Positions 8,761 through 64,000 of a DNA stretch of 64,000 bases are shown piece by piece; the stretch's first letter is position 1; every line of letters begins with the position of its first letter. Source of the stretch: Acholoe squamosa (taxonomy: Eukaryota > Annelida > Polychaeta > Phyllodocida > Polynoidae); assembly GCA_949317995.1 (NCBI GenBank), contig OX439038.1, positions 64,629,576 to 64,693,575 of the forward strand, written 5' to 3'. The notes beneath the pieces are model-generated. The model was given only the letters and a program-made list of their open reading frames with translations, was not told the origin of the DNA and searched no databases. The position numbers and the translations under genes were made by a program.

Positions 8761-9165
8761 GTCTAGGCCACAGGCCTACTTGTTATTGGCTTCTAAGTTC
8801 AATGAAAAAAAAAGAAGTTTAAGTTCTATGCAGCCCCTAAAGGGTTAATGGTTTGTGTGCACCAATAATGAGGCGTCAGTAATCCACCTCCCACCTTCAA
8901 GCCCCAAAGAACAGCTGACTATGCTCTATCTCTTAGGTGCAAAAGCTAGCTGTCCAAGCCATTTTGTCATACCTGGTTTGGCATATTATTTATTAAATGC
9001 ATATAAGGTCAAACATAGATTATTCAACCATGGCCTAGCTGTGTGGCAATTGTTCAGAGATACACTATAGACCAGATTTCCCTCTATGTTCCTATGTCTG
9101 TCAGAAACCCCCTTTAATCTAATGTGGTTCTGTGCGGCAGTTTCCATACATATGAATGTGTTATT

Positions 9166-9870
9166 GACTAAAGTCAATAACACAATAAAGATAAGTGTCG
9201 GGGAAGAAGGTTTGCGCCAGATTAACGCATCCGGTCTAAATGCCGCAGATTCTAAGAAACCAGAGAAATTGTGGGAGCTCTTCGAAAAACAGTTGAGGGT
9301 TGCCGTGAATTTCCGTATTGAGCGTTTGAGCCTCATGCAGTACAGGCAGAAGACCACAGAGTCACTTGATGCTTTTGTTACGCGAGCACGTACACAAGCA
9401 CTTCTATGCGAGTTTGAAGACAAAGAACTACAAGAGCGTGTCATTGAGTTAGTCATCGCAAGCACTTCGCTAGAAGAGTTCCGACTAGTTCTCCTAGACA
9501 AAGATAAGACATTAACAATCCAAGAGACTCTTAACATTGGTTGACGGCATGAGGCAGCCGACAAAGCCTCGAAGCAACTCAAGACACTCCAGGAGAGCCT
9601 GACAAGCACCACCACTGTGGACCACATTTCCAAACGTAAACCCTGTGGGAATTGCGGTCTTGTGCATAAGGACCGCAAGTGTCCTGCATACAAAGACGTG
9701 TGTGTCGGATGTGGCAGACGAGGGCACTGGGTTGATTATTGCAGATCGCAGTCCAAGAGCAAGAGCGATAAGGACAGGAAGCAGGATGATAATCCCAGGC
9801 CCCAAAAACAGTCGTCAAATACCAATAAGAATAAAAAAAAAGGTGCATGCAGTAACTGCACATGGAGATG
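9166..9870 (+). pseudogene. Gypsy gag C-terminal part and zinc knuckles
   Basis: The frame 9166-9544 encodes a capsid-like helical region (ESLDAFVTRARTQALLCEF and ELVIASTSLEEFR are typical gypsy gag signatures). A stop at 9542-9544 breaks it. The continuation encodes the nucleocapsid: CGNCGLVHKDRKCPAYKDVC followed by CGRRGHWVDYC (about 9640-9750), then a Lys/Ser-rich tail ending at a run of A at about 9833, where the frame slips into the protease frame. Confidence 0.75.
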
Positions 9871-9871
9871 A

Positions 9872-10337
9872 CTCATCCGATAAATCTGATGCAAGTGACA
9901 CAGGCGAATATACCGAAAGTTTCTATTGCATTAAAATGTCTGACAAATGCTTTGATACCATATCCCGCGATGAAGCATTTACGACTATCAAGGTAAAGTG
10001 TCCTGGCATAGACGACACCAAGGGCCTCAGGCTTAAATTGGACATCGGAGCTGAGGGCAATGCATTACCAATACGTACCTTCAGGCAGATATACGGTGAT
10101 GTTGACCCTTCAACAGTACTATCACTAGTTGGGCAGACCCGGCTCACGGCATATACTGGAGACGCCATCAAGTGTATCGGCAAACTATCTCTACAGTGCA
10201 AGTATTCCAAGCCAGAGTGGGTGAAAGCCACCTTCTATGTTGTTGATGTGCCTGGACCTGTTGTTTTAGGCCTACCTATGTGCGAGGCACTCAACTTGGT
10301 CACAATCAACTGTCATGTGGAGACTATAGTACAGTAA
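9872..10337 (+). pseudogene. Gypsy aspartic protease remnant
   Basis: The frame encodes a retropepsin-like domain: KLDIGAEGNALP in the active-site position and VVLGLPMCEALNLV near the end (the usual ILG motif region). The expected catalytic triplet D-T/S-G is D-I-G here, so the enzyme is probably inactive. The frame is open through the upstream zinc-knuckle region in a different register, which implies a frameshift near 9833-9840. It ends just before foreign sequence that replaces the reverse transcriptase. Confidence 0.7.
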
Positions 10338-10339
10338 AA

Positions 10340-10760
10340 TTCCTTTACAACCAATCCTGTTACAACGAAATTTCGGTTACAAAAAACAAATCTCATTGTC
10401 CCAAATCAGCCCCATACATTTCTATAGTAAAATAATCCCCTTATAACGAATTTTATATCATCTGGAATCGTTTATAATGAATTTTTCATGGCTTATACTA
10501 AACATTATCCGGTATCTGAGGGTTGTTAGGATGCCCTATTGAACACTGGGCAGCAGAAGGGGTAAGGGAATTGGGGGGAGGGGGTGTTATTGAACGCTGG
10601 GCAGCAGAATGGGTAAGGGAGTTGGGGGGAGGGGGTGTTAGGATGTATGATGGGGCTTCTACAGCCGTCTTTATTGAACTCAGGGCGGCAGAAGGGGTAA
10701 GGGAGTTGGGGGGAGGGGGTGTTAGGATGTGTGATGGGGCTTCTACGACTCGACCAAACC
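10340..10760. repeat. Foreign block with G-rich tandem repeats inside the gypsy copy
   Basis: From about 10520 to 10745 a unit containing ttgaac-c-tgggcagcagaa-gggtaaggga followed by a ttggggggagggggtgtta run occurs three times, at about 10536, 10589 and 10674. The last two are joined by a tgatggggcttctac segment that is itself repeated. The left part (10340-10500) is AT-rich and unrelated to gypsy coding. Long open frames on both strands here are products of the repeat. Confidence 0.7.
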
Positions 10761-10764
10761 TATA

Positions 10765-12371
10765 ACACTTCACAAAAGGGCCTTGGTGCTGCACTGATCC
10801 AGGAGGGCAAGCCGATAGCCTTTGCCTCCAAGTCCCTCACCAAAACACAGTCTAACTATAGTAACATTGAACGCGAAACACTAGCCCTAGTACATGGTGT
10901 TGAAAGGTTCCACACATACCTGTATGGGAGATCCTTCCACATTGTATCGGACCACAAGCCCCTGGAGATGATCTGTAAGAAGCCTATTGTATCAGCACCT
11001 CCTCGGCTCCAGAGGATGCTACTAAGGATCCAAGGCTATGACTACAGTGGAAGGGGAAGAGATGGTCCTATCAGACACGTTATCACGCCTCCCAAATCCC
11101 AATAACAAGTCGGAAGTCAAACTAGATATACGTGTCGATGGAGTGTCAATTGATCTCATTAGCTTCAGTACCGACAAACAGGCACAACTCCGAAGGGAGA
11201 CCCAGAGGTGCCCTGTCCTGAACGCTCTAGCAGAGGTTGTATATCGTGGATGGCCATCAAAGATATCTGATTTACCGACTGACCTCTGTACATTTTGGTC
11301 ATTCAGAGATGTGATTGGCCTTGATGATGGGATCCTGTTCAAAGGAAAGCAGGTCATCGTTCCAGAAACAATGCGGAAGGACATTCTGCAACAACTCCAC
11401 CGTGTTCATCTAGGCATAGAAAAAAGACAAGGTTGCTAGCCCGAGACACAATCTACTGGCCATGGATCAATGCCGACATTGAGAAAGTGGTCCAGGGTTG
11501 TAGTGCATGCCAAGAGGATCAAGACGCTAATCGGAAGGAACCAATGTTGCCAAGTGAAACCCCTGCTCGTGCATGGCAAATAATCAGGACAGATTTATTT
11601 GAGATCAAAGGACGTTAATTTATCCTTATTTCAGATTATTACTCAAAATTTCCAATTGTCAAAGAATTACAACCTCCAGTGACTTCTGAGGTTGTCAAAG
11701 ATGTAGTGGAGCAGGTCTGCTGCACCTTTGGAAGACCAGATGAGATCAGGTCAGATAACGGCCCACAATATGCTAGTGAGACCTTTAAGAAGTTTTGCCA
11801 GCGATGGGGAATAAAGCATACAACATCTTCCCCACACTACGCCCAGTCCAATGGGTATATTGAGCGTCAAGTACGCTATGTAAAGCCAGTCATAAAAAAA
11901 TGTATCAAGTCAAAAGGAAGTATCCAGGAAGCCCTGCTGATGCTACGGGCTACCCCAGTTGAAAGCCGGTTGCCATCACCGGCTGAAATGTTGCTGGGAA
12001 GGCAGGTAGCTACTATGTTACCTGCACATCAGGCTGATATTGACCAAGACATCAAACATAGGCTGGAAGAGAGGCGAGACAAGGCCAAAGAGCAATACGA
12101 CCAGACAGCACGGAGTCAACCTCTGCCACCTTTATACCCAGGGCAGGACATTTACATCCAAGACAAGGCCTCTAAGACATGGATGCCAGGGACAGTCGTG
12201 GAAAAGAGGGCTGAGCCCTGCTCATACATGGTTGACACACCAAGTGGCAGTATACTGCTGCGCAACAGACGTCATCTCCGTGAAGGTGTGCACGCCCAAA
12301 AGATGCCACCTCTACATCAAATGCGTCCCAATGGTGAGAAGGGGGAAAATGTCACTAGAAAAGAGAACTAA
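10765..12371 (+). pseudogene. Gypsy RNase H and integrase remnant
   Basis: The RNase H part includes GLGAALIQEGKPIAFASKSL, YSNIERETLALVHG and SDHKPLEMI. After a frameshift near 11040 comes DTLSRLPNP, then the integrase zinc site (H at LHRVHLG, CSACQ near 11505) split by another frameshift near 11430. The catalytic core carries the D,D,E triad: TDLF (about 11590), SDNGPQY (about 11755) and the Glu of NGYIERQV (about 11855). A stop at 11616-11618 interrupts the core. The C-terminal domain runs to TAA at 12369-12371. The copy is dead, but the frames are still easy to read, so it is not very old. Confidence 0.85.
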
Positions 12372-21571: not shown

Positions 21572-23389
21572 TTGAGGCAACTAAGTGACACCAAGTTCTA
21601 TAGAAAGGTAGACAATGATCTGACCGAGGAACACACCACTAAAGTGAATCTATTTTTGCACACCCTCCACCAGAAAAATGAACTGAACCGACAGATCTTA
21701 AACAAGGTAATCACAACAGAACATAGAACACCGAATTTCTATCTATTACCGAAAATCCACAAACCTGGTCACAATCCACCAGGATGCCCTATAGTCTCAG
21801 CCAATGGTTGCGCTACTGAGAGGATATCAGCCCTGATCGACATAATATTAAGACCGATAGTCCCTCTTACTAGATCCTATATCAAAGATACAGGACATTT
21901 CCTCATGAAACTGGAGGAAGCACAAGAGAAAGTAGGCCCACAAACCCTACTCTGCACATTAGATGTCAGTGCCCTGTATACAAATATCCCAAACGAGGAA
22001 GGACGCAGGGCAGTGGCACGATGGTTGATCAAATATCGACCGGAAAATAACATACTCCCTGGAGAACCAAGCAACTCCAGTGTCTTAAGCATGCTAAAAA
22101 TGGTCTTGGAGTTCAACAATTTTGACTTTAATGGTGACCACTATCTACAGGTTGGGGGTACCGCAATGGGCACTAGGGTGGCCCCAACCTTCGCAAACCT
22201 GTTCATGGCAGACTTCGAGGAGAGGTTTGTCTATGACTTCCCATTTCAACCCACAATGTGGGTACGCTTCATTGATGATATTTTTCTACTCTGGGACCAT
22301 GGAGAAGAAAAACTCACCAACTTCATCAAATACCTCAATGAGGTTCATGACAACATCAAATTTACACATGAAATTTCTGCCATGGAAATCCCTTTCCTTG
22401 ACACTTGTGTGAAGAAAGTAGGTAACCGCATTATCACAGATTTACACAATAAATCTACAGATGCACACAACTACCTACACTACAACTCTGCCCACCCCAT
22501 GCACTGCAAGAAGGGCATCCCATATGGTCAGTTCCTGAGAATCAGAAGAATCTGTACCCTAACTGACGACTACATTAGACAAGGTCTAATAAAGGCAGCA
22601 CACTTCATCTGCCGAGGCTATCCAAAGAAACTGGTAGCAGAGGCATTTGTTAAAGCACTGGGAATACCCAGACCAAACCCCCTAGGATACCAGGTGAACA
22701 AGAAAAAGAAGACAGACAATGAAGATGTGTGTATCCTTGTCACCACATACCATCCTTGCTTCAACGATTTACAGAAAATCGTTAAGACCAACTGGGAGAT
22801 GCTGAGCACTTCAGCACGCACCAGGCACCTACACCAAACGCGCTTGGTGATAGGTCTCCGGAAACCACCCTCAATTAGGAACTCCCTAGTGAGATCCCGG
22901 ATCAATTATCATCCCGAATTGGGTACAAAACATAGGGCAGCCCTCAGTGGTAAAGCTTCCAAAGAATGCGACAATCAAAAATGCCAGCTATGCCCCTTGT
23001 TAAACAAGAGTGGCCAGATAATATCTGGAGTTACCGGACAGACACATGCAGCTAAGGTAAATATCTCCTGCCTCTGCTCCAATGTCATATACTGCATCTC
23101 CTGTCGGAAATGTAGTAAACAATACGTGGGTCAGACCAAGCAAACATTCTATCCCCACATTGGTAACATCAGAGAGAAGAGGTTGAGCACAGACATGGGC
23201 TCACACTTCAATACTGATGGACACCAAGGCCTCAAGGATGTGGAAGTCCACATCGTGGAGTTCATAAACAAGAACCCACACTCTGATTACGCTGAAAAAC
23301 TCCGTAATAAATTGGAGAGGAACTGGATACTAAAATTACGTACCCAGGTCCCCAATGGTCTGAATCTAATTGACGCACCAAACTTTTAG
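21572..23389 (+). CDS. Penelope-like reverse transcriptase with GIY-YIG endonuclease
   Basis: The open frame covers 605 codons without a stop, but it opens with TTG inside the T-run and no initiating ATG is visible at the start, so it is an N-terminally truncated coding region. The RT part shows LPKIHKPGHNPPGCPIVSAN (about residues 58-77), LCTLDVSALYTNIP (catalytic Asp), GTAMGTRVAPTFANLF and FIDDIFLLW near residue 232 (the YxDD equivalent). A cysteine motif CDNQKCQLCPLL links to the GIY-YIG nuclease VIYCISCRKCSKQYVGQTKQ (about residues 508-527) and a typical C-terminus with NPHSDYAEKLRN and PNGLNLID. Elements of this type copy their RNA into a nicked chromosomal target. The intact frame suggests recent insertion. 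Confidence 0.85.
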   Translation: MRQLSDTKFYRKVDNDLTEEHTTKVNLFLHTLHQKNELNRQILNKVITTEHRTPNFYLLPKIHKPGHNPPGCPIVSANGCATERISALIDIILRPIVPLTRSYIKDTGHFLMKLEEAQEKVGPQTLLCTLDVSALYTNIPNEEGRRAVARWLIKYRPENNILPGEPSNSSVLSMLKMVLEFNNFDFNGDHYLQVGGTAMGTRVAPTFANLFMADFEERFVYDFPFQPTMWVRFIDDIFLLWDHGEEKLTNFIKYLNEVHDNIKFTHEISAMEIPFLDTCVKKVGNRIITDLHNKSTDAHNYLHYNSAHPMHCKKGIPYGQFLRIRRICTLTDDYIRQGLIKAAHFICRGYPKKLVAEAFVKALGIPRPNPLGYQVNKKKKTDNEDVCILVTTYHPCFNDLQKIVKTNWEMLSTSARTRHLHQTRLVIGLRKPPSIRNSLVRSRINYHPELGTKHRAALSGKASKECDNQKCQLCPLLNKSGQIISGVTGQTHAAKVNISCLCSNVIYCISCRKCSKQYVGQTKQTFYPHIGNIREKRLSTDMGSHFNTDGHQGLKDVEVHIVEFINKNPHSDYAEKLRNKLERNWILKLRTQVPNGLNLIDAPNF

Positions 23390-53300: not shown

Positions 53301-56031
53301 AATATAAGCAGGCGAAACTGAAAATTTACAAATATCTAATATTTCAATGACAGTGATAAAGAAAAAATGATAAGCACTATAAGAAATGTTATTTTACTGA
53401 AAGAAAAAATATAAAATACTGGTAAAAAGAAAATCCTGATTTCAGGAAACTTCCTGAAGACTTTCATCACTGCATGAAGACTTCCCATAGAGGGCAGAAC
53501 CTAGGAAACTTGTTTGGTACATTCAACGGAATCCCCCCCCTGATTATTAGATTACATCATTACCGGTATGTCATTTTGTGTTGATTTTGATATACATGTA
53601 CATGTATAATGATCACTTATTGAAAAATCTTTCAAGCAAACACATACATTTACCTGGGCCGATATTTAGGTACATTTTTCAAATAGCTTAAGTTTGCACA
53701 ATATCACTCAACCAACCATTGAAAGAATTCTAGGACATACCAAGGCAGCCCACTCTGTCATTTTAGACAAGATGACGCTCCAGCCTTGTGGTATCCAGTG
53801 GTATAGAACGGTGATGCCGCGGAGACTGAGCCAGCATGTGTAGAGTCCGCAGCCGGCTGTGTACAGCTCATGAATCTTGATGTCACCCATCCACAATGAC
53901 ATGAGCCGCCGTCCAATATACACTGATGTAGAAATGAGTCCTCATTAGTAGACTTTCTGACTCATTTGTTTCACTCGAAAATGTGAGCAATAGTCATGAG
54001 TTTTAAGATCATTTAAAAATTCTTAATACATTGCTATAGATTTACATTTTGCAAAATTTCCCTTTGTGTGGCAAAGTTGTTAATAGCAGGAGCTTACCTG
54101 GTACGATGAGTGAGATGAGGCTGATAAAGAACAATGTGATACACATTGTTACCAGCAGACAGGTCAGCTGCAAAGTACAAATAGTACACAATTAGGACGT
54201 CATTAATTTTTATTGGGGGGTGGGGAAGGTGGCCGCAGATGAATACCCAATTTAGGACACCTATATACGTACAGGAATTGATTATGAGAATATATTTTTG
54301 ATACTTTATGAATTATGGAATGAAATATGTGACATATGGAATGTTAACTTTACTGGATATCACCAACATGGCGCCACATCACATAATTATAAAGAAAGCC
54401 AAACTTTGCAGTATATCCTACGAGGTATTGTTTATGCCTCACTCGTTGACATGAATTTATAACAGAAGCATATAACTTCAAACCTCAAGAGAACGACACA
54501 ATAAAACTAGACAGCAATTGAAAGGGTAGAGGAAAAGAATATGTAAGGGAGTGGTCATTTTTTAACAACAGGGGTGGGGGTCAGAATTTTTTCGACCCCT
54601 TGATCGTGCGGGGGGGGGGGGGGGGCCAGAATTTTTTCAACTCCTCAGAGGAGGGGGGGGGGGGTCAAAATAATTTCACCTATTTTCAAGAAAGTTTGAC
54701 CCTCGACAGGGGGGTAAGGTCTGTGGGACTTCCACCTAGTGAGGGTAAGCCTGCCAGTGTACTCAAATTGGCGGAAATAGCTGCAACAATGCTAGCGTAT
54801 TCTGTTGTTAGGTAGGTATAGGAATCAACAGGGAATTCTCAACCAGAAGCGTCTTAATTTCAGAGGTTTTGAGGTCTACCTTACAGCTCTATATATGAAT
54901 TAAGGGGGAGAGAGAGGGGGAATTGTCTTAGCCATTGGTTCTTTGGGTAAGAGAAAAGTTTAAAAATCAGGATTTGCAAGGGTCATTTTTCCATGGAAAT
55001 TTCCATGACATTGTACTTTTCTGTAGTTTTCAGTTCATTTAGACTAACATTTGAACTGTTTGCTTTAGTTCTGTACTAGTTGCTTTTAGTATATAAAAAA
55101 GTATGTGCAATATTTCTAGTTTTAATTAGGGATTTATATCTTATCTAATTTTTTCTTTTGATTTATAATTTTACTTCTTACTCGCCAAAACAGACACCGG
55201 AATCTGTCGGCTATGACTCAGGGAGACTCTGAGCTAATCTATTATGTAATATTGTGACACCACGACGATGAGGCAGAGCAGGCGCAGGTATGCCGACCAG
55301 TACGTCTGACTGCCGAACCATTCTGCAAACAATATGCCTTGTTTAAAATATGTAAATCACCATGAGCAATTACCAGGGACCTCGCCTTCATAACCTTCTC
55401 CAAACTCCTATGCTTAAGACAAAACCAGAGTCAATAACATAATAATATAAAGGATGTTATGGAGAAGTAAATGAAATGAGTTGAAATAAATGCCTCACCC
55501 TGCAGTGGAATACAGTGGGTTGTCGGTAGGGCTGGAAGCCTGTAGGACCCCCACCCTGGAGTAACGCCTGATGTGCCGCACCCAGTCCAGCCTGCAGGTC
55601 TGCACCCGGTATGAGTGGAGGCGGGATTGGTATGTTCTGAAAAAGATATTTATAAAGGTAAAATTGGATCCAAGCCTTAGACTGCATCCATTAACTATGG
55701 AATGCTTTTTATTTGCAAAACATTTTATCTGTGTATCAACATGGCAATATTGCAGAGTGGTACTCATAGTCGCAGCTTAGTTTCTATGTCAGGGGCCAAA
55801 TATGCTATATTTCACCTGTTCTGGTTCAGGTGCCTGTTCTGCCATGTCTGGGTTTGCTTCCTCTTCTGCAGGTGCCTCGTCCTCTACTTGTTGAGGATCC
55901 ACCTGCTCTGGCTGTTCCTGGTTGTTATCAGCCATGTTCTCCTCCCCGAGCAGGTCTGCTGCGTTAGCCGCTCCCTCCGCCTCATCACGGGGCTGGTCTG
56001 GCTCCAGTACCTGTTCAGTTTTAGCAGTACC
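47363..56031 (-). CDS. MARCHF6: MARCHF6 (TEB4) E3 ubiquitin ligase, C-terminal 412 residues (spliced, partial)
   Basis: MARCHF6 is a multi-pass ER-membrane RING-CH ligase of ER-associated degradation (targets include squalene monooxygenase). Ten minus-strand coding exons in order, with matching phases: 56031-55816, 55636-55499, 55305-55261, 54167-54098, 53922-53741, 51399-51265, 51028-50939, 50104-49972, 49751-49616, 47456-47363; 1239 nt including TAA. They encode an acidic linker (first exon), then GLGAAHQALLQGGGPTGFQPY, then successive membrane helices with highly conserved blocks KIHELYTAGCGLYTCWL, LLLGLLFDLVVVAPLRVPL, DWAMGVLHAKI, TLMGPQWWLKRVIEQ, and the C-terminus RQFKRLYEHIKNDK, YLVGQRLVNYERR. 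These blocks match the human protein nearly residue for residue from memory. The N-terminal RING and first helices must lie beyond the gypsy insertion, outside the window. Exon 55305-55261 uses a TCAG acceptor and a weak gtgtca donor, chosen for phase. Confidence 0.93.
47928..48233. repeat. G/C-strand-biased minisatellite (CCCCCCGACCATAG)n
   Basis: More than 20 copies of a 13-19 base unit (ccccccgaccatag with a variable C-run) lie in the last MARCHF6 intron. The minus strand, which is the transcribed-sense strand of MARCHF6, is therefore a series of G-runs. Long Gly/Trp-rich frames here are repeat artefacts. Confidence 0.9.
48384..48473. repeat. Three 33-bp tandem units with an internal palindrome
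   Basis: The unit ctagcatcgactatagtcga recurs at 48384, 48417 and 48450. Each contains the palindrome tcgactatagtcga; in the third copy it is changed to tcgactatagttga. Located in the last MARCHF6 intron. Confidence 0.8.
49308..49496 (-). mobile_element. SINE copy 2 with 12-bp target duplication
   Basis: The 189-bp element is flanked by ggtaatcataag on both sides (49296-49307, 49497-49508). On the minus strand it ends gttaaacatctattact followed by an ACTC repeat tail, so it is oriented minus. A target duplication of this length and a simple-repeat tail are hallmarks of LINE-mobilised SINEs. No tRNA head is obvious in the remaining sequence. Confidence 0.8.
51400..53740 (-). other. MARCHF6 intron, no other gene
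   Basis: A 2.3-kb intron between the exons at 53741 and 51399. Moderately GT-rich with short frames only; no repeat boundaries seen. Confidence 0.5.
54168..55260 (-). other. MARCHF6 intron with G-runs
   Basis: Two adjacent segments each contain cagaattttttc- then a G-run of 13-17 (54609-54626 and 54651-54665). Short tandem duplication; no gene. Confidence 0.5.
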
Positions 56032-56228
56032 CTAGCAAACAAAGTGTGATAGTCAGCACTGTAAATCTGGTGTTGGTATTGTTAATTAGCATTGGTAAAA
56101 AGCCTTTCCATGATGCTAATATTTTAACTGGGCATAGTCAATCAACTTTTAACCACTACCAGAGATGAAAGTAACTTAGCACAAAAATCCCTGAAAATGT
56201 TCATTTACCGAGAACCCCTGAAATATAG

Positions 56229-56699
56229 TGTAGTGTTCTACCCCTCGATGTTATATCGAATCTTTCGATAAACAACGAAGAACAACTATTCAGGTTCCAG
56301 TTAAAACTTTATTGTCTAATAACACATAGGCATCAGCCGTTCTCGATCACAGTTACAGGTGGCAGAGTTTGAACTCTATTGCAGGTTCGACACTAGGCCT
56401 TCTAGTGCCTAGAGTTAATATTCCACATGAACCCCCTCTGTGCAGGAGCACAGAGGAGTATTAGAATATGGTAGCCGGGCAGCCGCCGACCATTGCTCAC
56501 AATGGTCAGTCGGGGCTGGACTGACCCTGAGGAAGGCCGTACAACGGCCTTATATACACCGGAGTCGAGGGCCACGTGACCAAGTGGTGACGTGGCGCTG
56601 GACTCCAGCGCCCCCAGGCGTCGGGTAATAGAGGTGCTCTCGACGTCGCCCACGAGGACCACGAAGGTACCTCGAAGATGACGCGGGACCACCACACCA
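56229..56699 (-). repeat. 3' LTR of the Ty3/gypsy element
   Basis: In minus orientation it runs TGGTGTGGTG to GAACACTACA (TG...CA) and is preceded by a purine run AGTGGGGGG (56708-56700), fitting a polypurine tract. It has a TATA box (TATATAAG, 56556-56549) and a polyadenylation signal AATAAA (56313-56308), giving U3 of about 175 bp, R and U5 in the right order. A longer version ending at 56759 is possible. The 5' copy would be beyond 64 kb. The LTR itself contains many perfect short hairpins (see findings). Confidence 0.7.
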
Positions 56700-57303
56700 C
56701 CCCCCACTAGACTGAAACGAGGTCTCTGAAAATTCAGAGATCCCGGATCAGTCTAAACAATTAGATAATAATATGAACTACTGGATCCGTCGACACAGTC
56801 GACAGAAACAGTAGAGGAATATATAGAAATATAGTTTCTACTGTACTGTAGAAAAAAATTATTATCACAGTTAAATTATAAGGCGTTGCTCCATCCAACG
56901 TAGGAGACCAGTGTCGAAACACTGCTTCACGACCTGCTCCTGGTCGATCCGAGGGAGGCACGACCGGGTATGGCAACCGGGGTCGTGTCGTTTCCTCCCT
57001 GTCTCGTTGAGAAGCTCCTTCCAGCGTAGGAAGCCCATCGATAGCGTACCATACTACTATGATGGTCCTTCGACCGTGAGGCCGAGGATGTGTGGCACCA
57101 CCGGGCCCTAAGACCAAGGTGGCGTCGGATCCACACAGCTTCGCAGGGAGGTCCGGGGACAGGAAAGGTACCCCCACTCGTGGAGGGTACACCGTCGTCC
57201 GGGAACGAGTTCCCGGGGGTTCCGTGCTGACATCGAGACTCTGTTCGATGTCAGCGATCCAGACTGACGAGGAGGAGCAGTAGTTTCATACTACTGATCC
57301 TCC
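56700..57303 (-). other. Hairpin array 3' of the accessory ORF
   Basis: Consecutive perfect stems with small loops: GTCGAC-aca-GTCGAC (56789-56803), TTTCTAC/GTAGAAA (56835-56854), CAGTGT-cgaa-ACACTG (56909-56924), CGACC/GGTCG (56930-56946), a two-part stem GAGGGAGG and CACGACC with their complements (56951-57000), CTTCC/GGAAG (57018-57033), CCGGGAA-cgag-TTCCCGG (57199-57216), an 11-bp stem GCTGACATCGA (57226-57255), and CAGTAGT-ttcat-ACTACTG inside GGAGG/CCTCC (57271-57303), which contains the ORF's stop codon. Confidence 0.8.
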
Positions 57304-60293
57304 GAGATGGACCCTGTAGCGGCGTCGATTTCGGCCTGCTCTCCGTCAGTGCGCTCCTCTCCATGTGGAGCGCTGGCGGCTAGCTGGCCCGAAAACGTCG
57401 GCGACTCCGGCAATGGGGCCTCGCGGTCCATTGTCGTACTCCAAGCCTCGTTAGAGGTCTCGGGTGCATCCCGGGAGTCCCCCTCAGCATCTGAGTGGAG
57501 AACGGCCGAGTCTGCTGAGTCGCTTCCGTCGTCGTCGTCGCTCTCCTGACCTTCACGGTCGTCCTTGTCTCCCTGGTCAGGGGGAGGCTTTGGAGAATGA
57601 TCGACGACATCGACGTCCCCGTCTATATCCATCGACTGTTCCACCTCGGCAGGTTCTACTGCTTGGGCGGAAGCCGACAGGTCCGGACAGACGGCTACGT
57701 TCGCCGGGGCCAGGGGAGTGATGCCCTGAAGATCCGGATGGATCCTCGGTGACACCATTCTCTGGACCGGTGGCGGCGTAGGCCCGGTGGTTCCCGAGAG
57801 GGTTATCAAGGGAACCGAGGAGGAAGACGGGGCTGCTGGCGGGTAGACGGAGGCACCGAGAGACCTACCCGGGGTGTCAGGCTTGTCCTGCACCACCTGC
57901 TCTCGGCCCAACATCGTCATAGCCGAGCTCAGACTGTCAATCTTTGGAGACAATTCTCTCAAAGGATTCGTCTGAGCCGCCAGCGTCCTGATGTCAGGAA
58001 TCTCTCCACCCTCGACGAGGTACCTCTGCGCTTCGCGAGAGGGCTCGGTTCGAACGGGCTTCAGGGTTCGGACGCCATGGTGTTTGTCCCTCATCCATTC
58101 CGAGAGTTGGACCCCGAAGACTCTAAAGAATTCGCGGTCGATTTCCTCCCAGCCTTCTATGATACTGTCCCTCTTGGTAATATCATATTGGGCCTGTGCC
58201 TCAAAGTTATTGAGACGCGTTCGGACGTCGGTCAGACGAGAGTCCATCTCCATCTGAACGGTCTGGCGCGCCTCATTCCTAAGAGCCGGAAGGAGCTCGT
58301 TACGGATGGCCATGTTTGTTCTATCAAACAGGCCGAACAAGTAGGCACTCGCTTCCTCACGGAATGCCTCACCGAACTTGTCGATAGCGGGGCTGCCTGT
58401 CATCTGTAGAAGTCCCTTACAACGTTCCACGAACGTCTTCGGGACCCCACATTCGACGCCATCGCCGTATGCAGGCTGTGCCAATTCCCAACGCAAGGTT
58501 GCTGTCGGGGTGTCGGCGCCTGTCACGACGTTGGAGAAGCTAGCTCCTGCTGCCGAGGTCAATGTCGCGCCTCCTACGTGGACACGCGGCGTGGCAGCTG
58601 GGGTGCTGCCCTCTGCCGCTGTAGGGGGCTTGACAGGAGACGAGTTGGTGGTCACCTTGGGTTGTCGATCACGACCACTCCGGGTTTCCACCGTCTTGCC
58701 TCCAGTTTTAGCACCACTGGTGCTTGGTTTGGCTGAACCGGTCGAAGCAGTCTTCGACTTTTTAGGAGCCGGGGCCGGGGCGGCTTTCGATGCCTTTTCG
58801 GGCTTCGAGGGAGCAGCCTGCGGCTTAGGCTTCTTAGGTTCAGTCGAACCGGCAGACTTTCCAGCTTCTGTAGAGTGGGGCCTCTTGTTCCCACTCGTAG
58901 AGGCTGTAGGTCCTGGGTCCCGAGGACGACTGGCCTCCCGCTTCTTCCGTTGCTCTACCCTGAACTCGGGGTAGGCACCGTAGAAAGCGGGCATCAGCTC
59001 CGGTCTGATATACAGGCGCTTCGTAGACGGGGGTGCGGGGGCCATCCGCATCCAGTGTCTAGTCGGCGCGCCTGTCTTCTCATTCCGTTCGCACTTTCCA
59101 ACCAGTGTCTCCACTAGCTGGATAGCGCCCTCGGCGTTGTACTTATGGGGCTGCTTGTACGACTTGAGATGACGCGCCATCAAGCCCCTTCGTGAGGTCA
59201 CGAAAGGAGGAGAGGTCGGGTCATCAGGGTCCTGATAACATGGAATGGTCTTTTCCACCTTAACACAACCGAACTGCGGACGGATGGCTCGATGCTCTTC
59301 AACCAAGTGTCGAGCATACCTGCCGTCAGTCGCGTATACGCGAGGGGGAAACCCCTTACGTGTGCAGTTCTCGAAAGCACACTGCTGCCCTGGATTGAAG
59401 ATGCGCCATGCGAACCCAATCCGCTGTCGCTCGGGCAGCGACACCCCCGACGAGTCTGAGGCATTCGTAACATTCTCGATCATCGAGACATACCAGTCAA
59501 TGGCATGACTGTCGTCCGAATACCATTCCTCGTCGTCACTACCGTCCTTTCCGACGAGACTTGGGAGTACCACTTGACCATTCTTGCGGTAGTCCTGAAG
59601 CTTTGTCAGTGGCCTGTCATCGACGTACTCAGCACGTCGTTTGGCAGTGATCGCTGACAGTTGCTTCCACTCGTCGACAGCCCTGGCCGTGTCTGGGGGT
59701 GAGGATACGGTGCTCTCCACGGCACCGGCATCGACCTCCGACGGCTCGGTTCCAGGTTCCGGTGGAGCAGTAGACTCGCTACTCCTCTCCCGGGCTGGAG
59801 CCTTCTTGGCTGCGGACTCTTTCTTGCTACTTTCCTTCTTGGGCACCCTAGGGATCTTGAAATCCTTCAAGGTACCCTTGGATGCCTTCGATTCAGTCGG
59901 CTTCTTGCCTTTAGAACCTGAAGGGGTAGCACTTTTCGATGGAGCAGGCGTCGACGGCTCGTCGACCTCCATCTCATCGGGAGAAGAGTCTCTCGAGGCG
60001 GCAGCAGCTGCGACCTTCAAGTCGCGCTTCTGCTGCTTAGCTGCCTCCTTCGCCTTCCGGCGGAGCTCCTTCTCCCGCTCCTGGGACTCAGCCAAGGCTT
60101 TCTGTGCATCCTCGATCTGCTTCAGAAGGGCTGCACTTTTAGCCGAGGTAGACTCGAGCTCTTGCTCGGGTCTGGTCCTCTTGGACTTCTTCTTCTTCTT
60201 CTTCTTCTGCGACTTGTGGCTCGCCGAAGAGCTGTACCCTGACTGCTCGTCGGACGAGGACCCTATGGTTCTTCCTGAACTGCCGGGTTCCAC
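57291..60293 (-). CDS. Accessory 1000-codon ORF of the gypsy element (function unknown)
   Basis: An uninterrupted frame downstream of pol on the same strand, in the env position. Its first listed codon is GTG; an in-frame TGA lies about 35 bases upstream and the first ATG is codon 108 (59972-59970, good context gag-ATG-g). Contents by residue: Lys-rich and coiled-coil segment (30-95); Pro/Ser/Lys-rich linker; two C2H2-like zinc fingers at about 300-390 (CAFENC with RHLVEEH, then a second C/H set ending RHLKSYKQPH); a basic Pro/Lys-rich tract (460-560); a helical region (about 625-760, VERCKGLLQ to REFFRVFGVQL); an acidic C-terminus. No CCHC knuckle, protease, signal peptide or membrane span is seen, so it is neither a standard gag nor an env. 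Nucleic-acid binding is likely from the fingers and charge; the exact role is unknown. Confidence 0.75.
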   Translation of the reverse strand: MEPGSSGRTIGSSSDEQSGYSSSASHKSQKKKKKKKSKRTRPEQELESTSAKSAALLKQIEDAQKALAESQEREKELRRKAKEAAKQQKRDLKVAAAAASRDSSPDEMEVDEPSTPAPSKSATPSGSKGKKPTESKASKGTLKDFKIPRVPKKESSKKESAAKKAPARERSSESTAPPEPGTEPSEVDAGAVESTVSSPPDTARAVDEWKQLSAITAKRRAEYVDDRPLTKLQDYRKNGQVVLPSLVGKDGSDDEEWYSDDSHAIDWYVSMIENVTNASDSSGVSLPERQRIGFAWRIFNPGQQCAFENCTRKGFPPRVYATDGRYARHLVEEHRAIRPQFGCVKVEKTIPCYQDPDDPTSPPFVTSRRGLMARHLKSYKQPHKYNAEGAIQLVETLVGKCERNEKTGAPTRHWMRMAPAPPSTKRLYIRPELMPAFYGAYPEFRVEQRKKREASRPRDPGPTASTSGNKRPHSTEAGKSAGSTEPKKPKPQAAPSKPEKASKAAPAPAPKKSKTASTGSAKPSTSGAKTGGKTVETRSGRDRQPKVTTNSSPVKPPTAAEGSTPAATPRVHVGGATLTSAAGASFSNVVTGADTPTATLRWELAQPAYGDGVECGVPKTFVERCKGLLQMTGSPAIDKFGEAFREEASAYLFGLFDRTNMAIRNELLPALRNEARQTVQMEMDSRLTDVRTRLNNFEAQAQYDITKRDSIIEGWEEIDREFFRVFGVQLSEWMRDKHHGVRTLKPVRTEPSREAQRYLVEGGEIPDIRTLAAQTNPLRELSPKIDSLSSAMTMLGREQVVQDKPDTPGRSLGASVYPPAAPSSSSVPLITLSGTTGPTPPPVQRMVSPRIHPDLQGITPLAPANVAVCPDLSASAQAVEPAEVEQSMDIDGDVDVVDHSPKPPPDQGDKDDREGQESDDDDGSDSADSAVLHSDAEGDSRDAPETSNEAWSTTMDREAPLPESPTFSGQLAASAPHGEERTDGEQAEIDAATGSISEDQ

Positions 60294-60312
60294 CAGGGAG
60301 AGAAGACTCCGG

Positions 60313-60622
60313 GTCTCGAACCGTTCTCAGACGGGACGAGACGTCGAAGAGGATCTTCGAGGTTTATCGATCCGCACTCTGGCGGGTCGAAGCCTCGAAG
60401 GTGTCTTCGATGTACCTCGAACCGCACTCAGGCGGCTCGAGGGACCGAAGACTGGAGTCTCGAGTGAACACGAACCTGCGCTCACACAGGTCGTGTCCCT
60501 CGACACTAGGCAGGGGAGACCTCCTACACTCAGGTAGGAAGTCCCCAGACGGGGCGTACCAGCTGGAATAAGCTAGGCTTAGTCCAGCTTATCTGCGTCC
60601 GACTCTCACGAGAAGGGCGCAG
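60313..60622 (-). other. Hairpin array in the leader of the accessory ORF
   Basis: Eight consecutive stem-loops: TCTGCG...CGCAGA (60592-60622), AGCTGGA/TCCAGCT with inner TAAGC/GCTTA (60561-60589), CCCC/GGGG (60543-60554), CCTCCTAC/GTAGGAAG (60520-60541), ACACGAaCCTG/CAGGtCGTGT (60468-60496), CCTCGAaCCGC-actca-GGCGGcTCGAGG (60415-60442), CTTCGAGG outer with TCGAtCCGC/GGCGGgTCGA inner (60355-60400), GTCTCG/CGAGAC (60313-60342). Several share an ACTC(A/T) loop on the plus strand. No ATG occurs on the sense (minus) strand between 60622 and the ORF. Confidence 0.8.
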
Positions 60623-60650
60623 ATGTGACCTCCGTGGTGGGCGACGCGGC

Positions 60651-60722
60651 CTTTTATCCCTGTGGCGCACGTCTCTGATTGGAGGAAGGGACTACGTGAC
60701 CGAGGAGGGCGAACCCCATTGG
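60651..60722 (-). promoter_or_regulatory. Internal CCAAT/TATA promoter for the accessory ORF
   Basis: On the minus strand: two CCAAT boxes (ATTGG on plus at 60718-60722 and 60678-60682), a CACGT-type motif near 60694, then GATAAAAG (60658-60651). Initiation about 28 bases on falls at about 60622-60627, exactly where the hairpin array starts. The LTR's TATA is preceded by a similar ggtcacgtg motif. Confidence 0.6.
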
Positions 60723-61292
60723 TCCACCGCGCATCACGCCATGACCAAATAAGGTATTGCTCAAAAAATAGAACGACTCACTCTCCCCTCACCGTCACGC
60801 TCTGCTTCTCCAGTCGCAATGTTTGCATATGCCGTTATTTCCTATGCGGTCTATGGGTTCCAACACTATTAACATGGATTAATCTGGGCACCCCCTCCTT
60901 CATCAGACTACCGGGATTAAAAAAAATGGTTCCAATATGGATCTACCCTTCGGGCAGTATCCACCAGCCTATGCTGGGAACCCGTCCTCACAGTCAATAA
61001 AATCAGAGGCTCCAAATTTCCATGTTTCCAGTATCAGTTTGTCTCAAACTAAGAGGCAATCGTACGACTTCTCGTTGTGTAATTTTTTATTCACCGTCGG
61101 CTTCACGTCCACAGACAGATTTACTCAAGAACGGTACCCGTTATTTTAAAGTCTCATTAAAAACACAGGTTAGTAAAGCTGCTGCTTGGTATTGTGCGAA
61201 ACATCGATTACTGAGTAGGGTTTAATCTAGGGCTTTTCCTGATTTTAACCTTTACTACAGGAACGAGTGTTGAGCCTCGGGGCGGGTTACTA
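60723..61292 (-). other. Spacer between pol and the internal promoter
   Basis: About 570 bases without a long frame. Unlike its neighbours it has no hairpin array; only an isolated ccagc-ctat-gctgg is noted near 60965. An octamer-like atgtttgcat lies near 60820. Confidence 0.5.
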
Positions 61293-64000
61293 TCACCCCC
61301 TCCTAGCCCGCCGTCCTTTGATGTGGCCCGGGCCGACCGGGCTATTAACCCGTTTCCGTCGGCGTCTGCCTCCCATCACTTGTGACGGTGTGGATGCAGG
61401 AGCCAGAGTGTTTGCTCTGGGTTTCCTTTTATCCTCGACACTCGCTGACCGTTCCTTTGATGAGCCTTGGCGCTTAAGCCTCGCTCGAGTCATAGGTCCG
61501 GACTGGAGTGACTGATCTTTCACTTCAATCGAAACGTTTCGATGTGAAGTTTGTTCAGTCGTTCGCACCTTCGAGGGGGGGTCGGGCTTCCGACATCCCT
61601 TCAAAGGCTGTTTAGATGTTTTCGACTTATCTCGACGGGCCGGTCGACCACGGCGCCGCTTTGATGGTTTACTGGCATCCAACACCTCCACCTCGCTCAG
61701 TTTTCGAGCTTTTTGCTGTCGTTTTCGATGACCCTGCTTAGTTTGTTCTTTAGACTGGACTTCCGGCCGCGACCTTTCGACCTCTATTTCGACCTGTCCA
61801 GAAACAGACTTAGCCCTTTTCGTAGCCCTACGAGAAGGTGAATCATCATCAAGTTGTGGTTGCAACAACTCGACAGTTTGTGATAGTTCTACGCCCAACC
61901 ACCGGCGCACTCTATCAACATTGCTCTTTTGCAACCGTCCGCGGGATGATCGAAGTAATAATGTCGACTCAGAGAGGACAGAATCTACAACGAACGGCCC
62001 ATCCCAGTTGGGGGCAAGCTTCATAGCTGCCTGGGGGGTGTGGTACCTCACCACCTGTTCACCAACTGAGTATCTTCTCTGCTTTAGCCCATAGTCATAC
62101 CCGACCTTCTGGCGTTCCGCAGATTTACCTAAGTTTTCCCTTACCATGCTATAACTCTCCCTCAATCGGTCACGAAGTTGTTCCACGAAGGTGACGGAAC
62201 AAGGGACTTCGAGTGGGTTCTCGATTGAGCCGAAAATCACATCCGCTGGCATGAGAAGTTCTTCCCCGAATACCATCATATTTGGACTGCATCCAGTAGA
62301 ACTGTGCTCAGAGCTGTTATATGCGGACACCACATATTTAGCCTGTTCATCCCAGTCGTCCATATGTTTGTCTACCAACATAGTCAGACTCTGAATCAAC
62401 GTTCTATTGAACCTTTCCACCTGACCATCACTCTGTGGTCTGTATGGATTGGTTCTCTGTTTTACAATCGTTAAATATTCACACATCTCAGAGAAGAGTC
62501 GAGATTCGAATTCTCGACCTTGGTCGGAATGCAGAAGCAACGGGACTCCAAAGGTCAAAACCCATTCGTCCACGAAGGCCTCTGCACAGGTCTCTGCCGT
62601 GTGATTTGGTAGGGGAATAGCGCGTACATACTTGGTGAAGTAATCTTGGATTACTAACATGCAAGTATTCTTGTTTGGCGTGGGTGCAAATCCCGAGATG
62701 ATATCCATAGCTATCCTCCCGAATCTCACCCCGAACAACTCTTGGTGCAGAGGAGACTTACCCATGCCCTCGCCGGGCTTTACCAGGCAACAGGTAGGAC
62801 AGTGTCGAACCCAACGACCTATGTCCTTTCCCATCCCGGGCCAGTAATATCTCCTTTTCACCTTTTCGAGCGTTCGTTTACGACCAAAATGTGCCGCTGT
62901 TCGGTGTCCGTGGCAAAAGGAGAGTACCTCACCCCTCAGTTGGCGTGGTACAACTACTTGAATCGTGCGCCTAGCTCGACCCGCCTCGACTTTCCAGCGA
63001 CACAACAAGCCTTCACGGAAGGTTAGTAGAGGCCATTGCCCTACTAATTTCCGTACCTCGGCGCTCTCGATCGATACATCAGGCCTAGTGGGTTTAGCCC
63101 CCTTAACTAGCCATTCAGCAACTCGTTTGATGTCAACGTCCGCTTTCTGAGCATCAATGAGTTCATCGAGAGACCAAAATGCAACACCCACCCGGCTGTC
63201 TACTAAACCACTTACAGCTGCCAAAACAGCATTATGACTGCCGCAGTCTGTGCAATCCGACCTCTGGCATAGCCGCACAGGGATACGACTAAGGCCATCG
63301 GCGTTTAGATGCTTGGCCCCACTTCGATGTTCGATCTTAGAGTTTTCGAGACCGAACTCCGAAAGGTGGGCCAGCCACCTACCCATCATTCCCTCAGCCT
63401 CTTTGAAATTTAGGAGCCATTTCAAAGACGAATGATCAGTGCGGATAGTGAAGTTACCACCATAAAGGTAGTGTCTAAACTTCCTGGTGTACACGACAAC
63501 TGCCAACAGTTCCCTTTTGGTAGTGCAGTAGTTTCGTTGTGTTTTACTTAGAGTGTTGCTGGCAAATGAGATCGGGACCTCCATTCCATCCTGCACCTGG
63601 GATAGAACAGCCCTGATCGCTGTGTTGCTAGCATCAGTGTCCAAGATAAAACGACCGTCGGGTGTGGGGAATCGAAGAACAGGTGTCTCCCTGAAACTTC
63701 GTTTTAACTTGACAAAAGCATGTTCGGCTTTCTCCGTCCACGCGAATGCCTCGTAACGACCTCTACTACCTTTAGGTTTTTGGATCACTAAGTCCTGCAA
63801 AGGACTGACGAGTTCTGCAAACCCCGGGATGAACTCTCGGTAGTAGGAACAAAAACCAATGAAGGATCGGATTTCCTTCACTGTAGTGGGCCTAGCCCAA
63901 GTCATTACATCGCTAATTTTCCCCGGGTTGGCTTCTATACCCTGTTCAGACACGATTCGGCCCAGGTACTCGACTGAAGTCCTAAAGAGTTGACATTTTT
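61293..64000 (-). CDS. pol: Ty3/gypsy pol: RT end, RNase H, integrase (partial at window edge)
   Basis: The frame is open to the window edge (the RT end EYLGRIVSEQGIEANPGK crosses 63953), so the N-terminal part with protease and the RT core lies outside. Visible in order: RT thumb (SFIGFCSYYREFIPGFA), RNase H (DTDASN, KRELLAVV, RTDHSSLKWLL, HLNADGLSR), integrase zinc site (HGHRTAAH with CPTC), catalytic D, D, E (AMDIISGF, HSDQGREF, GQVERFNR), the GPY/F-type module (NWDGPFVVDSVL) and a long basic tail of about 190 residues ending at TAG 61293-61295. There are no stops or frameshifts, so it may be young and active. It lies in a MARCHF6 intron in sense orientation. Confidence 0.93.
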   Translation of the reverse strand, partial: KCQLFRTSVEYLGRIVSEQGIEANPGKISDVMTWARPTTVKEIRSFIGFCSYYREFIPGFAELVSPLQDLVIQKPKGSRGRYEAFAWTEKAEHAFVKLKRSFRETPVLRFPTPDGRFILDTDASNTAIRAVLSQVQDGMEVPISFASNTLSKTQRNYCTTKRELLAVVVYTRKFRHYLYGGNFTIRTDHSSLKWLLNFKEAEGMMGRWLAHLSEFGLENSKIEHRSGAKHLNADGLSRIPVRLCQRSDCTDCGSHNAVLAAVSGLVDSRVGVAFWSLDELIDAQKADVDIKRVAEWLVKGAKPTRPDVSIESAEVRKLVGQWPLLTFREGLLCRWKVEAGRARRTIQVVVPRQLRGEVLSFCHGHRTAAHFGRKRTLEKVKRRYYWPGMGKDIGRWVRHCPTCCLVKPGEGMGKSPLHQELFGVRFGRIAMDIISGFAPTPNKNTCMLVIQDYFTKYVRAIPLPNHTAETCAEAFVDEWVLTFGVPLLLHSDQGREFESRLFSEMCEYLTIVKQRTNPYRPQSDGQVERFNRTLIQSLTMLVDKHMDDWDEQAKYVVSAYNSSEHSSTGCSPNMMVFGEELLMPADVIFGSIENPLEVPCSVTFVEQLRDRLRESYSMVRENLGKSAERQKVGYDYGLKQRRYSVGEQVVRYHTPQAAMKLAPNWDGPFVVDSVLSESTLLLRSSRGRLQKSNVDRVRRWLGVELSQTVELLQPQLDDDSPSRRATKRAKSVSGQVEIEVERSRPEVQSKEQTKQGHRKRQQKARKLSEVEVLDASKPSKRRRGRPARRDKSKTSKQPLKGCRKPDPPSKVRTTEQTSHRNVSIEVKDQSLQSGPMTRARLKRQGSSKERSASVEDKRKPRANTLAPASTPSQVMGGRRRRKRVNSPVGPGHIKGRRARRG

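Follow-up and report, generated by a model that had tools for sequence, protein, structure and literature searches.

Organization of the element

The DNA considered here, referred to as the window, is a stretch of 64,000 nucleotides from the polynoid annelid Acholoe squamosa (assembly GCA_949317995.1, contig OX439038.1, positions 64,629,576 to 64,693,575), the right-hand part of which is occupied by a Ty3/gypsy retrotransposon lying on the minus strand and continuing past the end of the window into the adjoining stretch, L031. An initial annotation of the locus drew attention to perfect hairpins in the noncoding parts of this element. Analysis of the whole element revealed that the excess of folding spans gag, pol, a downstream open reading frame (ORF) named ORF2, the leader of ORF2 and the long terminal repeat (LTR), and that in the coding parts it survives shuffling that preserves the amino acid sequence.

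The element is 12,974 bp long by its coordinates (approximately 13 kb), and its features within the window are listed in Table 1. The 5' LTR (L031:4911-5378) is 100% identical to the 3' LTR over 468 bp, both flanks carry the 4-bp target site duplication (TSD) CTAT, and a short 5' leader follows the 5' LTR. The presumed primer binding site, CTGGTGCCGTGACCAG (L031:4895-4910), adjoins the 5' LTR and itself forms a 5-bp hairpin. The gag gene lies upstream of pol and is overlapped by the frame encoding protease and reverse transcriptase (PR-RT) in L031. Pfam matches to gag-asp_proteas and RVT_1 (L031) and to RT_RNaseH, H2C2 and rve (window) give the domain order protease-RT-RNase H-integrase, and Gag carries a CCHC knuckle (Pfam zf-CCHC, 21.0 bits; cut-off, 20.8). 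Judged by its sequence, with LTRs of the form TG..CA, this order of domains, the knuckle and the 4-bp duplication, the element belongs to Ty3/gypsy (Metaviridae), as the initial annotation had recognized; the LTR was drawn too long there, the true repeat being 56229-56696 and the sequence from 56697 to 57290 being the 3' untranslated region (UTR).

The genome was searched over 1.48 Gb in 63 contigs, with only the best candidates being scored, and hence the copy counts are lower bounds. With a query of 632 bases containing the LTR, 40 of 42 matches spanned at least 630 bases at 100% rounded identity. All 46 scored matches to ORF2 had 99-100% identity and kept a frame of 1010-1014 codons open; all 49 scored matches to gag likewise had 99-100% identity, and 48 of them lacked a stop. 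With this near-identity of LTR, ORF2 and gag and these open frames, the element is very young and multiplied very recently. The flanks of 30 LTR loci (first 1000 bases) are unrelated, save for two pairs: L018/L019 (G000:C6:21053083-21058569) share 849 bases of flank at 99.9% identity, as a local duplication would leave, whereas the flanks of L008/L012 share 158 bases at 92%. A weak base preference is seen in the first seven positions of the insertion target. At a further locus, L025/L030 (G000:C12:6584544-6601194), two copies are arranged head to tail: behind the LTR of L025 come 49 bp that start with a primer binding site, and a second LTR comes next.

Within the window, the part of the element that it contains matches only itself and its own palindromes. 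Searches of viral contigs with ORF2, the pol tail and PR-RT found no relatives, and a search of phage records with 56229-60700 gave no match. In Rfam, 55800-64000 returned a single sub-threshold hit at E values up to 1, which was judged to be due to chance. A second, broken gypsy-like element, recognized by eye on the plus strand of the window (9071-12371), is unstructured, with a mean of 2.5% over 17 fragments by the 350-nt measure described below.

Table 1. Features of the element within the window (PPT, polypurine tract)
Feature	Position	Strand	Remarks
3' LTR	56229-56696	(-)	468 bp; TG...CA on minus strand; ends TGTGG...CTACA
Perfect hairpin, 7 bp	56254-56270	(-)	putative U5
AATAAA poly(A) signal	56308-56313	(-)	motif scan
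Perfect hairpin, 9 bp	56435-56456	(-)	putative R
Perfect hairpin, 8 bp	56488-56507	(-)	putative R; sense loop TGAG
Putative LTR transcription start and U3/R border	near 56527	(-)	~30 nt past TATATAA
Perfect hairpin, 8 bp	56533-56551	(-)	between TATA box and putative start
TATATAA box, LTR promoter	56550-56556	(-)	motif scan
Perfect hairpin, 8 bp	56594-56612	(-)	putative U3
3' UTR	56697-57290	(-)
G-rich PPT-like stretch	56697-56709	(-)	directly 5' of LTR; from sequence and LTR edge; putative function
Nested hairpin cluster	56710-56870	(-)	just upstream of PPT; 56723-56740, 56789-56803, 56835-56854
Hairpin cluster at ORF2 stop	57181-57300	(-)	57199-57216, 57226-57255 (11 bp), 57278-57296; z -3.9
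ORF2	57291-60293	(-)	1000 aa; frame open from 60326
ORF2 leader, serial hairpins	60294-60630	(-)	predicted fold; z -9.1
TATA-like box GATAAAAGG	60650-60658	(-)	motif scan; presumed internal promoter
pol end: RNase H, H2C2, rve integrase	61293-64000	(-)	Pfam; protease, RT and gag outside window, in L031

Hairpins and folding in the noncoding regions

Perfect, non-overlapping stems of at least 6 bp with loops of 2-9 bases were counted against dinucleotide shuffles. Between 56229 and 56860 there are 10 such stems, compared to 0.95 in the shuffles (highest of 200, 7), and those of at least 8 bp number 5 where 0.07 are expected. Three stems each were found in 56861-57290 (0.82 in shuffles; highest, 4) and in the leader at 60294-60622 (0.96; highest, 4), and by perfect stems alone only 56229-56860 exceeds every shuffle. 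The seven stems quoted in the initial annotation are present base for base at their positions, and its impression of a density beyond chance is borne out for this segment. Its count of 20 or more perfect stems reduces to 17 in the three noncoding stretches by the definition used here. The description of the stems as lying almost end to end fails for the perfect ones, which cover 128 of the 468 bases of the LTR, 136 of the 594 of the 3' UTR and 51 of the 329 of the leader, and holds when imperfect nested stems are added. Perfect stems of at least 8 bp are likewise enriched in the background, positions 1-54000 of the window (26 compared to 6.9; 10 shuffles).

By predicted folding energy, the span 56229-56900 folds at -282 kcal/mol compared to -203 kcal/mol in 20 shuffles (z -13.4), and individual regions, each tested with 100 shuffles, gave z scores of -6.5 for U3, -4.8 for R-U5, -9.1 for the ORF2 leader, -4.4 for the gap between pol and ORF2 and -3.9 for the distal 3' UTR. 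Upstream of the PPT (56697-56870), z was -6.1 by the same measure, with sliding windows at 56701 and 56761 reaching -5.5 to -8.9. Structure is weak in one part of the noncoding sequence, 56871-57180 in the middle of the 3' UTR, where z was only -2.2 (100 shuffles). A 120-nt folding scan at 113 places between positions 1 and 54000 gave a mean near zero. The gap between pol and ORF2 is also unstructured at 120 nt (10 windows); structure appears there only at long span, at full length and at 350 nt (19.8%, 4 fragments), and hence the excess in the gap is not of the short-hairpin kind. When the noncoding stems were sorted by loop size, the excess was 12.9-fold at 3-4 bases, approximately 3-fold at 10-40 and 0.9-fold at 41-70. 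Because the hairpin at 56533-56551 lies upstream of the putative transcription start, a transcript would contain it only once, within U3 at its 3' end.

Folding of the coding sequences

The coding sequences were compared with 30 synonymous shuffles each, in which codons were permuted within the gene so that amino acids and codon-junction dinucleotides were kept. The minimum folding energy difference (MFED) was 23.2% for gag (z -13.1), 17.3% for ORF2 (z -9.8), 14.8% for PR-RT (z -7.1) and 13.6% for the pol tail (z -5.4). Perfect stems of at least 6 bp are likewise in excess over 48 synonymous-codon shuffles, with 18 in ORF2, 12 in the pol tail and 14 in gag against 5.35, 4.81 and 4.12, respectively; by loop size, the coding excess is 2.2-3.8-fold at 2-9 bases, 1.5-fold at 16-40 and 1.2-fold at 41-70. 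The arrays had been described as stopping where coding begins, a view that these counts overturn. Assigning the feature to the noncoding parts is likewise unsupported, since the choice among synonymous codons carries it through gag, pol and ORF2. This is more in keeping with a property of the whole RNA genome than with separate signals in the noncoding sequence.

The element was also divided into 350-nt fragments, the size customary in work on viruses. All 54 sense coding fragments were above zero (mean, 18.3%), with averages of 21.7% for gag, 16.2% for PR-RT, 14.0% for the pol tail and 20.5% for ORF2; the noncoding averages were 44% for the leader (1 fragment), 31% for the LTR (3) and 19.1% for the 3' UTR (3). 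Background means were 4.3, 3.2 and 6.8% (16, 16 and 27 fragments, respectively), and outliers reached 68.8%. Ten further ORFs in the window served as controls for the synonymous shuffles, and nine of these fell at z -1.7 to +1.1 with MFED values of -4.8 to 8.3%; being shorter (471-1806 nt), they make for less powerful tests. Two gypsy pol stretches from elsewhere in the same genome were tested with 40 shuffles, and one of these (L062; 49.7% identity to the PR-RT frame over 288 aa) had an MFED of 1.7% (z -0.8). GC content is higher in the element (47-59%) than in the window (42%), and base composition or codon usage might be thought to produce the excess as an artefact. However, both the dinucleotide and the synonymous shuffles keep composition, and L062 shows its 1.7% at 59% GC, leaving this explanation scarcely credible.

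Distribution of variants among copies

With copies too alike for covariation to be used, substitutions shared among copies were compared with private ones, on the premise that variants common to several copies most likely passed through replication and that private variants mostly arose after insertion. The test took in the window and 40 further copies between 56229 and 61780, with a depth of 39-40 copies at 56400 and at 57500 and of 28-29 from 59000 on; sites with a pairing probability above 0.5 were taken as paired, and the null consisted of random sites matched for base, CpG context and codon position. Shared substitutions fell at paired sites in 11 of 37 cases, compared to 21.3+-3.0 expected, with none of 400 draws as low, and broke a pair in 4 cases where 11.2+-2.1 were expected. 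Private substitutions fell at paired sites in 104 of 185 cases (116.6+-6.2 expected; 2% of draws as low) and broke a pair in 66 (71.2+-5.0 expected); such a slight deficit is expected if part of the private set had passed through replication. Shared and private variants differ in this respect at p 0.004 (Fisher). The result for shared variants agreed across three folding spans, and when the structure was slid by five offsets the shared paired count rose to 18-23 of 37. The 40-copy test counted L018 and L019 as two copies; a repeat with 29 copies, one locus for each element and the window copy excluded, gave 9 of 35 shared and 92 of 159 private substitutions at paired sites (Fisher p 0.0007). 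Variants that spread between copies thus tend to avoid disrupting predicted pairs.

The deficit is present in both noncoding (5 of 17 compared to 10.1+-2.0) and coding sequence (6 of 20 compared to 11.6+-2.1). The latter count bears on the proposal that the LTR, 3' UTR and leader merely hold packaging, dimerization or protein-binding hairpins and that the coding sequence is ordinary. The noncoding peaks are indeed the highest, and related loops recur in the leader; against this, shared coding variants avoid pairs too, and synonymous shuffles show strong structure in gag, pol and ORF2. In its exclusive form the proposal is contradicted by these observations and is considered quite improbable, surviving as an added layer; the roles that the initial annotation suggested, as packaging signals, as sites bound by protein or as a trace of the replication mechanism, may apply to the local peaks.

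ORF2 and its leader

ORF2 had no match in Pfam or the PDB and no meaningful similarity to gag; a single C2H2-like motif was found at residue 305. An Env-like role was rejected, the maximum 19-residue hydropathy being 0.96 with no membrane segment. Among copies, 56 synonymous and 41 nonsynonymous substitutions were counted, fewer of the latter than the 66.0+-4.6 expected, and ORF2 therefore encodes a protein under selection, of no recognized kind. This count held the window copy twice, which leaves the distinct substitutions unaffected.

The leader array was initially annotated as beginning at the predicted start site, and the TATA-like box does lie just upstream of it. Five of its hairpins, spaced 48-54 nt apart, have related loops: CTGAGT at 60533, TGAG at 60485, CTGAGT at 60431, CAGAGT at 60381 and CTGAGA at 60330. 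Loops containing GAG account for 5 of 9 in the leader, compared to 17 of 492 in the rest of the window (77 segments) and 11 of 111 in other segments of the element (17 segments). Related loops elsewhere are the TGAG of one hairpin in the putative R and ACAGAGTC of the 11-bp hairpin at 57226. Tandem Repeats Finder did not call the leader as an array.

On the sense strand, the 609 nt of 60110-60718 contain no ATG in any frame where 7.4 are expected, and none of 500 mononucleotide shuffles was free of ATG. This stretch covers the area before and within the open ORF2 frame, the length of which is the same in each of the 46 scored matches. Translation of ORF2 must therefore start at a non-AUG codon or at 59972, or the message must be spliced.

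Origin and possible function of the folding

The account that we favor, with moderate confidence, is that the element carries genome-scale ordered RNA structure (GORS) which is kept by selection during replication and peaks in the LTR and the ORF2 leader. The whole message, coding sequence included, should by these predictions fold about as strongly as the genomes of highly structured RNA viruses. Several observations weigh against this account. Strong folding is not unique to the element: the second gypsy pol stretch (L063, 44% GC) gave an MFED of 8.3% (z -3.3), and a Penelope-like ORF recognized by eye in the window (21581-23386) gave 15.9% (z -4.2), or 14.7% over 9 fragments. The antisense strand is structured nearly as strongly as the sense, and with antisense structures the effect on shared variants is equally strong (9 of 37 compared to 19.3+-2.9); as stems are mainly Watson-Crick, the test does not tell RNA from DNA. 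In coding sequence, single interruptions of helices by G-U and A-C are equally frequent (18 and 18; 10 and 10 or 11 and 9 by stricter counts). The test of shared variants was limited to 56229-61780, without gag and most of pol, and the scored copies, at 99-100% identity, leave pair covariation unreadable and conservation of stems among copies uninformative. Finally, leader hairpins 5-7 align well, flanks included, and may be old tandem copies, in which case their loops are not independent.

The main rival is copying by the element's own RT, whereby template switching within a strand (snap-back copying) would make or repair perfect inverted repeats with no benefit to the element. This would accommodate the perfection of many noncoding stems, the near equality of the two strands and the confinement of the excess to short distances (gone by approximately 40-70 nt), the last of which also fits selected RNA structure; homogenization of arms would likewise clear shared variants from stems. 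However, arm copying should alter amino acids too, yet the excess persists with amino acids fixed, and it is absent from the related gypsy L062. Moreover, coding fragments fold better in the sense than in the antisense orientation, which is unexpected from copying: 18.3 compared to 15.6%, with sense the better in 32 of 54 (Wilcoxon p 0.008, an optimistic value given that fragments overlap by half). One noncoding count also found G-U interruptions in excess of A-C (11 compared to 3, among overlapping helices), with which stricter counts (2 compared to 3, and 2 compared to 2) do not agree. On balance, a trace of replication is regarded as rather unlikely.

Strand symmetry would also be expected if the stems acted as palindromes in DNA, where those of the LTR and those before the internal promoter would bind dimeric transcription factors or form an insulator. 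Several stems do fall within U3 and close to the TATA box, and the best known gypsy insulator is an array of sites within a leader. Nevertheless, the stem sequences differ from one another whereas the leader loops recur, and the excess runs on through approximately 10 kb of coding sequence, so that such a function is a very doubtful source of the whole. By the comparison of strands, sense RNA is mildly favored, short of proof, over a DNA- or cDNA-level cause as the molecule under selection.

Under selection for GORS, that molecule would be the sense genomic RNA, folded as a whole, the compactness of which may shield or condense the 13-kb RNA in the cytoplasm or in a particle; nucleases, the small-RNA machinery and double-stranded RNA-editing enzymes are proposed as the agents against which it would be shielded. 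The LTR and ORF2 leader would be local peaks, probably cis-signals atop the genome-wide folding. The five leader hairpins with (C)UGAG(U) loops, together with one in R, are candidate repeated sites for an RNA-binding protein encoded by the element, possibly the zinc knuckle of Gag or ORF2, and could serve packaging or translational control of the ORF2 message. A bolder and frankly tentative extension is that virus-like, genome-scale RNA structure evolved independently in an LTR retrotransposon for persistence in the germ line, as a poor substrate for small-RNA, nuclease and editing defences, and was coupled to a separately promoted transcript with a phased leader array of RNA-protein recognition hairpins at intervals of approximately 50 nt. 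The Penelope-like ORF may be an instance of this strategy in another class of retroelement.

A literature search, mostly at the level of titles and with most subscription papers outside it, gave no report of such folding in an LTR element. The function of the folding becomes testable in a setting where success is copy number and insertion age and not infection, and one genome offers the contrast: folding is strong in the element, about half as strong in L063 and absent from L062. The comparison of shared with private polymorphisms among copies provides a cheap test for selection on structure that does not require diverged relatives.

Comparison with known systems

The packaging hairpins of retroviruses expose purine-rich loops that are bound by the zinc knuckle of nucleocapsid. 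The element resembles them in having, close to an RNA 5' end, a short series of hairpins whose exposed loops are related, and in the CCHC knuckle of its Gag; it differs in that its clearest series, a candidate for protein binding, precedes ORF2 and not gag. Troyka elements are likewise LTR retroelements of aquatic animals formerly placed in Metaviridae/Gypsy, but have 5'-CG..CG-3' ends and 3-bp TSDs (PMC12440569), as opposed to the TG..CA ends and 4-bp TSD of the element.

The genomic RNAs of the LTR retrotransposons Ty3 and Ty1 also contain structured cis-acting regions, and palindromes at their 5' ends have been proposed to function in dimerization (PMC11381356). These RNAs are A-rich (approximately 36%) and mosaic, with up to 30% in stable regions (PMC11381356), whereas A makes up 18-29% of the element and all 54 of its coding fragments lie above control. 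The main text of that report contains no mention of "shuffled" or "z-score", so its numbers are not directly comparable with those for the element.

The closest likeness is to GORS viruses. Discussion of genome-wide RNA folding has treated it as characteristic of positive-strand RNA viruses and has linked it with persistence (PMC7642675). In the present case the folded genome belongs to an LTR retrotransposon inserted in the DNA of a eukaryote, and the link with persistence does not apply. The MFED values quoted from Simmonds (2020) are 7.5-10.7% for hepatitis C virus (HCV), 12.5% for human pegivirus and approximately 15% for SARS-CoV-2, with a maximum of 23.4% (PMC7642675). The excess is coding-wide in both, at 14-22% per gene in the element (350-nt fragments) compared to 7.5-17.5% for most structured viruses (PMC7642675), with the caveat that shuffling methods differ in detail between the two. 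Single pairs are typically not conserved between relatives of GORS viruses, and the scored copies of the element are 99-100% identical. In the element, as in these viruses, paired sites carry fewer variants, clearly so for shared and slightly for private ones across the span tested, and the excess of folding goes beyond what protein sequence and codon use account for.

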